DNA of 64,000 nucleotides from contig JACYXH010000826.1 in assembly GCA_026745465.1 (NCBI GenBank), positions 3,551,792 to 3,615,791 on the forward strand, written 5' to 3'. The first letter of the stretch is position 1, and every line of letters starts with the position of its first letter. Source of the DNA: Lota lota. Lineage: Eukaryota > Chordata > Actinopteri > Gadiformes > Lotidae. The position numbers were made by a program, and so were the translations under genes. This document shows positions 13,730-29,319 of this stretch, piece after piece. The notes under the pieces were generated by a model. It was not told the origin of the DNA. It saw only the letters and a program-made list of their open reading frames with translations, and did not search any database.

Positions 13730-14275
13730 ATGCGTTCCATCACAGTGGTGTGTTTGATCTTCGGTAAGTTTTAGTTAGACAAGGAGCCTACACAAATGAC
13801 AGATTGTAGTGATTTATGAATAATGTTAGCTAGTACTGGTATGCTACTTAGTCACGCTAGAAATATGTAGCATCTGCTTATAACATAGTCATTCTCATAC
13901 AATTTGAATAATCATGGTGTTGGTGCTCCTGCTACTTTAAGATACAAAATGTATAGCTATTGATTCATCTGTAGTCAATTAGCTACTGTTATACATCACG
14001 GAGACTGACAAATGGGAATTCCCCATTCCTAAATATAATACCATACAGTTCCAAATGTAGTATAGCAAGAATAGGGTTAGAAATGTGCTCCCTCATGAAT
14101 ATTCAGTTGCTTTCAAATTATTATAATATGAATATGATGTATTGCAGCAAGTAAATGGATAAATCGATTAATATAATTTCATAATTTCATCACATTGGAT
14201 GCAGCTCAAATTAAACGTCATGAAAATGTATCACAATGATGTAATATTTCCCATTGGATAGATCCATTGGTTAAA

Positions 14276-14359
<84 letters not shown>

Positions 14360-25007: not shown

Positions 25008-28000
25008 TCTTCAGTCTCCGCTGCAAATGCTAATTTGGTGGAGGAATCTAAGTCCTATCTGTGTTGTGGAAAACCAGAGCTTACGGTTGATGCCGGTGAA
25101 AACTGTGAACAGAGTTGGGAATCAGCAAAAGAGGTATACCATAGAATAACATAAAAAATAACATGCATTAATAAATAGCATTTATATTTTATATTAATCT
25201 ATATTAATTAATATATATGAATTATATAAATTTCAGAACATAGCTGAATATCATCCAGTCCATCCTCTGGAGTGTTCTGCTCCATGCAGGAAAGTGTCCT
25301 CAGGGAAGCTCGTCATGGACACATGTCTTAATGTCACACTCAAGATGGTTTGCCCTGTATGTTAACCTTTACATTATTTTACCTATAACCTAGAATAGTA
25401 TAGTAGCCTACACTTCTCATGTTGTTATTGCAATGCAGCTACATTTCTATTACTCTGATTGTGTGCGTATATAAGTGATGTGCCTTACGACTAATTTCCC
25501 TTACGGTTAACCAGAAGTTTTGTCCAAATTGAGCACCAGACAATCTAAGAGGCCAAACATTGTCAGAAAAAAACATTGTGTGTATTAAAAAAACATTTTA
25601 AATTCTTAATTTAATATTATAAAAGAAGTCAAAACTTCTACATTTCAACATTGTTATTTATTTAGATCATTTTACACACTACACAAATACAACCCTCCTT
25701 ACCTCCCTCTCCCCTACCAAACCCATCCCCACACCCATGCCCGTAGCCATCTATGAGGTCACCGAGGTCCGGACCTCTGTCATCTTTTTAGAGCTATAAT
25801 AAAATTGGAATCTAAACAGTATAAAAAATCTGTCAGTTGAGAACTCCTCAGAGATGAGTTTATGCTTAATTCAGTTTAGACTTTGTTATGAGGTCAACCC
25901 CTCACCCCCCCAACAAAACAACCCCCGTAACTGAAGCCGCACCTATACCCCCCCCCCCCCCCCCCCTTCACCATAGCGTGAGAAGGCTGGTGTGTGTGTC
26001 TCCGAAGCACAAGTGATATCCTTCCCAAAATCTAGTAGTCGTAGCAGTGAGTGACTCCGGCGGGGTAACAGCGTCTTAATCAGATATATGTTGTGTTTGA
26101 CCAGGTGTTTTCCTGGTCAGCTTTACATTTTGCAGTACAACTATTTTCAGCGAGCGTTGTATGCGTCGATGTCTGCGTCCAGTTTGGAGAAGTGTAAACA
26201 ACCACACTTGTGACCGCTTTTGGCTGTCCATTGGACTGACTGTGTTAGAATGTACCACTTGAACACGTTGCGACAAGTCCAGCGCTCTCTTTCTATCTCT
26301 AATGCTTTTCTCATAGAGAAACTAGTATTTCTGGGGCCGACTAGCAATTGCAGCAATGACTAGTTGACTTATCCTGAAACTCCCTAGTGAAAACATCTTT
26401 CTGCCTGCTAACCTGTCTGCCTGCTTACCTGTCTGTGTATGTCTGTCTTCCTGCCAATCTGTATTTTTTGTTTGTTATGAAGAATTATGAAGGGCCTACC
26501 ATGTTAGCCATGAGTGTAATTCATTAGGAATAGGCGAAGAAAAACTGTTGAAACTTCTCCCCAAAACATTGAGGTTTAAATCCATTAAAGGGCTACTAGG
26601 CATGTTTGAGTTATAGACTAGCGAAGAATTAAGACCTTCATAAGCTTGGTATTCATAACTTTGTGGTAGAAGGCTTGGCTAGGTCTATAAGCCGAAACGT
26701 AATTATTTCAATCAGCATTATATCTGGTAATCTGTTGCCTCAAACGGGGTGATTTTGACAAGCAATTTAATCGTTAGGAGTGACGTAGCCAGCCAGCTTG
26801 CAATAGCATCGTATTGGATGTTTTTTCTCCATATTCTGTATGTTTGCCGATTAGGTTTGAGACATAATTTAACCTCACTCGTTCGCACTCATCGTACCTT
26901 CTTTTTAAGGGTGTGGAGTCAAATATACATATTTCATTAGTTTATACCTCACTTTCATCAATATCTATATAGACTAAGCTTTGTGCACATATCAACCCTT
27001 CTCGTTCAGTTTGATTGAATTCTGCCAGACAGGGGCCATCGCATTAATGTTTTTTAGCTAACTCGCGGTGATAGCGCTAGCTGCTATTTTAGCATCTTCG
27101 CTATCATAGGCTCATGCTTAGTGCTCAAGTACATCCCACTGATTGGTTGACGTCAAATTCTCCTACTTCAGCCGTGGACAGTTAGTATGACCGCAGATAG
27201 AAACATTAGAATATGTTTGGAAAAATTTTAACCAGCGTTTATAACTAGACATTTTTTGAGACTAATTATATGGACCCTGTCATAATTGTATAGAACAGTA
27301 TATCATGGTTGTATATCGCAAAATCGCCCAACCCTATCATATAGACTCAAACGCTTCATATAGACTGTCCTGTGTATCGCTGTTAATCGCCGTAACGTTG
27401 TCAATTCACACTGGCTCCGTGAGACAGCCCTCTCACACCTGCCGTGACGCGAGGGGTAGACCTCTGTGTTTTTCTACGGGTCGTCTCTATTTTTCCTGGT
27501 TATGCATGCCAACTGGAGTGTATTTCCCTTAGGTTTAAACCACAACATTTGGGTTCTGCCAAGCCATACTTCATCAACCACATTGCAGAATCATTGCTGG
27601 TGTAAATATAGACAGAGCAGGCAGTGCGGTAGCATTGGGGCCCGTGGGGTGGGGCGGCCGTGGAGCGAGCGTGTGGGAGAACGGCCCCTTACGAGGTGGC
27701 ACTGTCGCTGTCCTCAGTGATGTGTCAACAACCGTGGGGCAGGTTAGGATAGCAAGCAAGTTATAACGTTAGTCCAAAATAGGTGTAACGTTAGGCTATT
27801 GTGTTAGATATACATTTGAAGTTATATATACATTAAGGTAGGCTTACTAGGCTACAATTTGGACTAGCACTATCTTATCATTTTTACCTTGTTAGAATTG
27901 GTGAAATTCCATGTTTTGACTACTCTGTCTTACTTCAACAGGACGGACATTTAACTCTGGATAAGATTACGAAATACACTCCACATATGGACAAGTGCCC

Positions 28001-29319
28001 AGTAACTCCAGAAGCGTTTGTCAAATCAGCGGCATCGCCACGTAACCGTTACTATGGTAATAATTAGTGTGGTTGCAAACCAAGCCACACTATTGTTATC
28101 ACGTGTCTTATTATTATTAGTGTGGTTGCAAAGCAAGCCACACTATTGTTATCATGTGTCTTTTTATTATAATTATTTGTTTTCTTCCGCCTGATTTTCG
28201 GTAATTATCTCCTCCTACAGTTGTTGCCGCTATAAAAACTAAGCCCATTGCAAAGAATTGCGTCTACATTTAGAGACCAACCATTGCAGACTTTTGTTTT
28301 TATTAATATTTATAGTATTAATATTTCATATTGAAAGTGAATGGGGCAAAAACGCTCAAATCAACCACTCCAAACCTGAATACCTGGGAGATGTCAAATT
28401 AAATCCACATATGTAGACCAGACCCGATTGTCAAATCAGCGGAATCACCACCTAACTGTTACAATAGTAACAATTTATATTAATAATACATTTTAGTTGA
28501 AACACTTTTGAAGACACTCAAAGACACTTTGCATACGTATAAACATACATATACACATTCACACACAAACACATTCATACATACTTGCAAACATACATAC
28601 AGACATACATACATACATATCAATGTTTGAACAGGTGCAAATTATATAAATAAAGCTTAACCTACTATTATAACAGGGTGGTTATTAGGTAATAAACTCC
28701 AGTAATAATCCAATAATCCAGTAGAAATAAATAAATATTTATTTATTTCCTGGTGATCCATCATCCAGAATAGTGTGTGTGTGTTTTTCTTTGCATGGGC
28801 ATCAATAGTTCTAGTGCTGTGGTTCAATTTCCTTGAAACTTTGCACAATTGACAAACCATCTTTTTGTGTTTTAAATTCATTTGAAGATATGTTCAAAGC
28901 CGTGTCTCAATCGAACCTTTAGTGGGTCATGTTTCTGTTTACAATGAAAGCACTCACACCTCACAGCCACGCTATAACTTCCAGCACTGCTGAAAACCTT
29001 TGGCGCTCATCACAGCGCAATCCATTGTCACCTCATATTTTAAACACAGAACAAGACCTAAAATCAAATATTACAGCGTGTGTTGTCGTTTCTGCTCCTC
29101 GAGGACGGCCCACTGAGCTATAAATGTATGCTTTTACAGTATTGTAAAGATGCTAAGAGTGTCCACCAAATGTCATATGATACAATATATAATGCATATA
29201 ATATTTAATGTAATGTAATTATATTTTGTTTATCACCCACTGTAGGTTTGGTACCCTCTTCCTTGCTGTGTTTTTTTGCTTTGATCTGCCTGGGAATTAA
29301 TTCCTACTGTGCAAGATGA
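24368..29319 (+). CDS. Unrecognised small cysteine-rich membrane-anchored protein, copy 2 (five exons)
   Basis: Exons 24368-24401, 25015-25133, 25237-25356, 27942-28056 and 29246-29319 have the same lengths and phases as copy 1, giving 153 aa. Exons 1-3 are identical to copy 1. Exon 4 begins DGHLTLDKI in place of DGNKSVEKI, so the NKS sequon is lost, and later reads EAFVK for EAIVK. Exon 5 reads LVPSSLLCFFALICLGINSYCAR. All eight ectodomain cysteines are kept. The polyadenylation signal context (cttgacttaataaaatgc) is conserved near 30395. Both copies are expected to be expressible. Function is unknown. Confidence 0.6.
24919..25006. repeat. (GT)n microsatellite before the exon 2 acceptor (copy 2)
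   Basis: 88 nt of GT, ten nt longer than copy 1. This explains the offset change between copies. Confidence 0.95.
28058..28163. repeat. Two tandem hairpin-forming units beside the exon 4 donor (copy 2)
   Basis: Counterpart of 17402-17513, with a slightly different spacing between units. Confidence 0.8.

Follow-up and report, generated by a model that had tools for sequence, protein, structure and literature searches.

Tandem genes for a predicted small cysteine-rich surface protein in Lota lota, with mosaic divergence between the copies

We analysed a 64,000-nucleotide (nt) stretch of the Lota lota genome (contig C826, positions 3551792–3615791; hereafter the window), which holds no N and belongs to a 575-Mb assembly of 867 contigs. 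It contains a tandem pair of predicted five-exon genes, each encoding a 153-residue protein with a predicted signal peptide, eight further cysteines and a hydrophobic C-terminus. Our best explanation, to which we give a probability of about 0.5, is a genuine gene for a small cell-surface glycoprotein, present in tandem duplicate, attached by a glycosylphosphatidylinositol (GPI) anchor and homogenised between copies in exons 1–3. The mosaic is the more instructive part of this finding: the two copies are near-identical over one half of the gene and differ over the other.

Gene models and duplicated units

We reconstructed every exon of the two gene models on the plus strand, copy 1 at 13730–18658 and copy 2 at 24368–29319 of the window. 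Exon lengths are 34, 119, 120, 115 and 74 nt in the two copies alike, giving a coding sequence of 462 nt each. All introns of both copies are GT–AG, each frame is open across 153 codons, and an in-frame stop lies 48 nt 5′ of the ATG in both. An earlier note on this DNA had described two five-exon genes of 153 residues, and its coordinates proved exact, as did the equal exon lengths and the open frames. The exons and candidate polyadenylation signals are:

Copy 1 exon 1, 13730–13763, plus strand: start codon, with A at −3, and the greater part of the signal peptide (MRSITVVCLIF)
Copy 1 exon 2, 14367–14485, plus strand: end of the signal peptide; Cys 28, 29 and 42
Copy 1 exon 3, 14589–14708, plus strand: Cys 64, 68, 81 and 90; NVT sequon at 83
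Copy 1 exon 4, 17286–17400, plus strand: region nearest the membrane, with Cys 110 and an NKS sequon at 94
Copy 1 exon 5, 18585–18658, plus strand: hydrophobic C-terminus and stop
Copy 2 exon 1, 24368–24401, plus strand: identical to copy 1 exon 1
Copy 2 exon 2, 25015–25133, plus strand: identical to copy 1 exon 2
Copy 2 exon 3, 25237–25356, plus strand: identical to copy 1 exon 3
Copy 2 exon 4, 27942–28056, plus strand: 8 substitutions relative to copy 1; no sequon at 94
Copy 2 exon 5, 29246–29319, plus strand: 7 substitutions relative to copy 1
Candidate AATAAA signal, copy 1, 19737–19742, with a second at 19799, plus strand: sequence motif
Candidate AATAAA signal, copy 2, 30399–30404, with a second at 30461, plus strand: sequence motif

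The genes lie in a head-to-tail pair of ~10.65-kb units that are 98.7% identical over 10682 columns in a self-BLAST of the window. Each unit consists of ~4.5 kb of upstream DNA with a Tc1-type transposase frame, then the gene, then AATAAA, the first of which stands ~1.1 kb 3′ of the stop. The transposase frames (10976–11686 and 21614–22324) are identical in DNA between the units, and that of copy 2 matches DDE_3 and HTH_Tnp_Tc3_2. The junction of the units is gap-free, with breakpoints that share ~2 base pairs (bp), and exons 2–3 were found twice in the 575-Mb assembly, both times in the window (2 of 2 candidates). The tandem duplication is very likely real.

Mosaic divergence between the copies

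The units differ by 83 substitutions in all. Their boundaries and two tracts of contrasting divergence are:

Tandem unit copy 1, 9172–19817, unstranded: from self-BLAST; overlaps the next unit by the 2-bp microhomology
Tandem unit copy 2, 19816–30479, unstranded: from self-BLAST and the junction sequence
Near-identical tract, 10200–16740, unstranded: 4 differences in ~6.5 kb; spans exons 1–3
Diverged tract, 16750–19140, unstranded: spans exons 4–5; 15 of 189 exon sites and 42 of 2200 noncoding sites differ

A further 16 substitutions fall in the initial 500 bp of the unit. The longest identical run is 2214 bp, a length reached in none of 10000 random placements of 83 differences. Within the diverged tract, exons 4–5 differ four times as much as the adjacent noncoding DNA (Fisher p 2e-5) and contain no indels, whereas the 500-bp bins covering 16672–19171 hold 21 gapped columns.

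Exons 1–3, which carry seven of the eight ectodomain cysteines, are identical between copies. Because the surrounding DNA is almost as identical, their intactness is uninformative about constraint, and the absence of a stop or shift in either copy, which the earlier note had reported and which is correct in that both frames are open, tests only 189 of the 462 nt. The lesson is that two copies with intact frames give no evidence of constraint where the surrounding DNA is equally identical. The same note spoke of a recent tandem duplication. A head-to-tail pair of high identity does exist, but a uniformly recent origin is not supported, since its divergence is mosaic. Nor do the data support simply a rapidly evolving ectodomain, also proposed there: the changes fall in exons 4–5, and exon 5 encodes the hydrophobic anchor.

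The mosaic could possibly have arisen by (i) gene conversion ending in intron 3, (ii) conversion from an unseen donor or (iii) the joining of two diverged haplotypes. In our preferred explanation, gene conversion after the duplication, or exchange between haplotypes, would keep the start region and exons 1–3 identical, while exons 4–5 would drift apart. The two resulting proteins would have a common core and differ beside the membrane.

Dispersed 3′ fragments

A DNA search of the assembly with a 185-base query (exon 4 plus the start of intron 4; 194 candidates, 40 scored) gave at least 70 matches. The two window copies cover all 185 bases, in four contigs (C735, C490, C344 and C755) the match starts at query position 90 (window 17375) and so takes in the final 26 nt of exon 4, and at least 64 matches cover query positions 114–185 only, which represent a genome-wide repeat adjoining the splice donor. 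The four contigs share one left end inside exon 4. An exon 5 search of the assembly returned the two window copies together with C490, C755 and C735 (5 of 5 candidates); these three run on through exon 5 into the flank beyond copy 2, and C344 matched only to 18164. Exon 5 is intact in none of the three, the stop codon being changed in C735 and C490 and a one-base shift being present in C755. All four are 5′-truncated remnants of the gene. Used as outgroups, the fragments divide the noncoding changes evenly between copy 1 (11) and copy 2 (12), and 14 could not be assigned; an outgroup is available for 8 of the 15 exon changes, two of which fall on copy 1 and six on copy 2, and the other seven have none.

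These fragments bear on the possibility that copy 2 is an assembly artefact, with haplotypes laid end to end, or that a duplication joined two diverged haplotypes, so that the exon 4–5 differences are allelic. The overall identity of the units and their mosaic divergence could also be obtained from two haplotypes, but the window is free of N and the microhomologous junction has no gap. Moreover, C735, C490 and C755 pass from the 3′ end of the gene to the flank past copy 2, not across the junction between copies, and this continuity counts against an artefact because an ancestral single locus predicts it. We regard such an origin as quite unlikely.

The dispersed copies were also considered as full paralogues and rejected: the 7–13 kb upstream on all four contigs gave no exon 1–3 match (E up to 5), and at the DNA level the upstream sequence of C735, C490 and C755 matched the gene nowhere 5′ of the final 26 nt of exon 4. 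A protein match on C755 (E 0.49) is a true 3′ fragment. Those on C802 (E 2) and C500 (E 6.7) were dropped as chance; at E 1e-8, C802 shares with the window only 70 bp outside the gene and C500 nothing. A short match at L018 (PHLNQCPIT, E 1.2) was judged chance after the surrounding DNA had been read.

The four contigs (loci L009–L014 and L018–L019) are small, 110–214 kb. A comparison of C735, C490 and C755 shows long common stretches, for the most part at 93–99% identity and in some pieces at 83–92%, which suggests a segmentally duplicated region. Two repeats lie in intron 4 of copy 1: a 58-nt segment at 17759–17816, 86% identical to the end of exon 4 with its splice donor and thus a partial internal duplication, and at 17404–17503, starting four bases past exon 4, two 50-nt units, 96% alike, of the genome-wide repeat with at least 64 matches.

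Predicted protein and membrane attachment

Residues 1–17 form a predicted signal peptide ending in A-N-A (by inspection and hydropathy). Between its predicted end and the C-terminal hydrophobic stretch lie eight cysteines (28, 29, 42, 64, 68, 81, 90 and 110); the C-terminal segment holds three more and the signal peptide one. N-glycosylation sequons occur at 83 and 94 in copy 1 and at 83 only in copy 2. Residues 120–153 read SAASPRNRYYG-LVPAPLVCLFALICLGI-HSYCAR, and by hydropathy they comprise SAAS at 120–123, a spacer to 130, 17 hydrophobic residues at 131–147 (mean hydropathy 2.60 in copy 1 and 2.41 in copy 2) and a polar tail of six residues at 148–153. The signal peptide, the eight ectodomain cysteines and the hydrophobic C-terminus with a short tail had all been listed in the earlier note, and hydropathy and the cysteine positions reproduce them.

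As a general rule, arginine on the lumenal side and an almost absent cytoplasmic tail are more typical of a GPI signal than of a stable type I anchor. Here, both arginines of SPRNRYYG lie on the lumenal side of the hydrophobic stretch, and a cytoplasmic tail is nearly absent. By charge placement and tail length, the protein end therefore looks more like a GPI-attachment signal than a stable membrane anchor, and these features lead us to favour GPI anchoring. Alternatively, a real gene could encode a single-pass membrane protein of type I that has a tail of three to six residues and pairs with a signalling partner. The 17-residue stretch (mean hydropathy 2.6) followed by HSYCAR could span a membrane, but the segment is short, has its positive charges on the outer side and contains no charged residue for adaptor pairing, and we think this arrangement unlikely.

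If the protein is GPI-anchored, the precursor would enter the secretory pathway and be cut after Ala17, between A-N-A and the following Asn. The ectodomain of ~100 residues would then be disulfide-bonded through its eight cysteines, with up to four bonds, and probably N-glycosylated at Asn83 and, in copy 1 only, at Asn94. The C-terminal hydrophobic peptide would be exchanged for a GPI anchor near Ser-Ala-Ala-Ser 120–123, and the mature protein may serve as a short extracellular ligand, co-receptor or decoy at the cell surface.

Coding signal and selection

By a codon-table score, the joined coding sequence ranks first among its six frames in each copy. Of 5000 stop-free 24-residue pieces taken from 31.7–52 kb, which possibly include coding DNA, 3.4% reach a 17-residue mean hydropathy of at least 2.5; the C-terminal 24-mer of copy 1 exceeds this threshold and that of copy 2 falls below it. 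Each of these features singly is modest evidence, and the weight lies in their coincidence in one chain. We consider the gene itself very probably real.

Several observations weigh against our preferred explanation. (i) Of 300 stop-free chains taken from parts of the window that were assumed to be noncoding and are partly Tc1 or collagen-region DNA, 7% equal or exceed the codon score of copy 1 (0.101), and the score of copy 2 is lower still (0.075). (ii) Exons 4–5 carry 12 replacement and 3 silent changes (142 and 44 sites; proportions of changed sites pN 0.084 and pS 0.068), without sign of strong purifying selection. (iii) Relative to noncoding DNA, replacement changes are in excess (p 6e-5) and silent changes possibly so (p 0.056); because both classes are raised, simple protein-level selection fails to explain these exons. 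(iv) The tail HSYCAR is more polar than the end of a textbook GPI signal. (v) The gene models are derived from genomic sequence. Clean positive selection on a binding surface is likewise not our reading of exons 4–5, since both classes of change are raised, the changes are clustered and exon 5 is the hydrophobic anchor.

Another possibility is that the exon chain is non-functional, either decayed or a chance series of open frames. The weak codon bias, the lack of visible constraint in exons 4–5, a ratio of replacement to silent changes near the unconstrained expectation and the broken state of the dispersed exon 5 copies would all agree with that. Against it, a signal peptide, eight cysteines, a hydrophobic C-terminus, GT–AG introns, an upstream stop at 48 nt and the absence of exonic indels coincide in both copies, which makes a non-functional chain improbable. 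We find it improbable, too, that the pair represents a lineage-restricted family with its own disulfide fold, in which gene conversion keeps the core identical and the exons next to the membrane change four times as fast as noncoding DNA, through diversification or the retention of old haplotypes. If true, this could mean, for example, two receptors with a common binding head and different presentation or glycosylation.

Neighbouring genes

The neighbour at 6266–8356 on the minus strand is a CD83-like membrane protein with a single V-set, for which signal, V-set and transmembrane exons and a short tail were recognised by eye. Among its best 60 of 307 PDB matches, CD83 (5mix, E 0.0016) ranks tenth, below nectin-1 (E 3e-6), CD226 and antibody light chains. 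Its identification as cd83 is plausible and unproven, and the position 'next to cd83' given in the earlier note is too firmly worded. An immune or gamete role for the gene pair would be speculation, drawn solely from the surface-protein architecture and this neighbourhood. Elsewhere in the window, we found a sorcin/grancalcin-like EF-hand exon (53156–53773, plus strand; 24 residues, E 1.3e-11), collagen-like frames recognised by eye (~38–42 kb, minus strand; three tested, without a Pfam match at E 0.05) and a tRNA gene (2381–2462, minus strand; Rfam RF00005, 64.7 bits).

Relation to known protein families

Family searches covered Pfam, PDB, IMG/VR and the fish's own assembly, none of which is a collection of other fish. 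A Pfam hmmscan with E up to 10 (filters drop most matches above ~0.1) gave none for copy 1 and, for copy 2, one zf-RING_12 match (E 0.25; 12 bits, cut-off 25) taken as chance. With phmmer against PDB, neither the whole protein nor the ectodomain of copy 1 had a match up to E 10, and in IMG/VR seven stretches fit a pattern, with no confirmed relatives. The earlier note's statement that the proteins match no known family thus stands for these collections, and the Ly6/uPAR, TNFR and Ig families that it named were covered by the Pfam run and the PDB sequence search, again without a convincing match. Six peptide strings of the protein were not found by text search of open papers, which says little, and literature searches on the synteny and organisation of cd83, on fast-evolving teleost genes for GPI-anchored or cysteine-rich proteins and on GPI signals listed nothing on the gene.

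The lack of a family match is weak evidence of novelty because the collections searched hold no fish proteomes. By the same token, there is a good chance that the gene is real and already annotated, as a fish orthologue under an uninformative name or as a member of a known family beyond these libraries, which is compatible with our best explanation.

Two faint likenesses may be mentioned. The CxxxC motif and TLKMVCPDG look somewhat like the cystine-knot families (CTCK, DAN, glycoprotein hormones), which we treat as a lead only; unlike these, the protein has a hydrophobic C-terminus, the spacing after CxxxC seems shorter, and Pfam and PDB gave no match. The length of ~150 residues, the signal peptide and the short cytoplasmic tail resemble the RAMP layout, but cysteine number and spacing differ and Pfam gave no match.

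A further comparison is with Ly6/uPAR (LU) proteins. The CC pair of LU domains sits near the domain end, whereas the adjacent cysteines come first here; the count of eight alone would suit the eight-cysteine LU form. According to PMC6600238, LU domains have ten conserved cysteines (paired 1–5, 2–3, 4–6, 7–8 and 9–10), or eight with one bond lost, and the last of them is immediately followed by Asn; the typical LU gene consists of three exons, two of which carry the domain. In the present genes, Pro-Val follows the last ectodomain cysteine and there are five exons. Membership is therefore rejected on cysteine layout, the residue after the last cysteine and exon number, together with the absence of a Pfam match. 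What the predicted proteins share with Ly6/uPAR members such as zebrafish Bouncer/SPACA4, which belong to a family prone to lineage-specific expansion, is a small, secreted or anchored, disulfide-rich single ectodomain (PMC6600238). If expressed and absent from other annotated families, the pair would add another small disulfide-rich fish surface protein to a class in which fertility factors, Bouncer among them, are also found.

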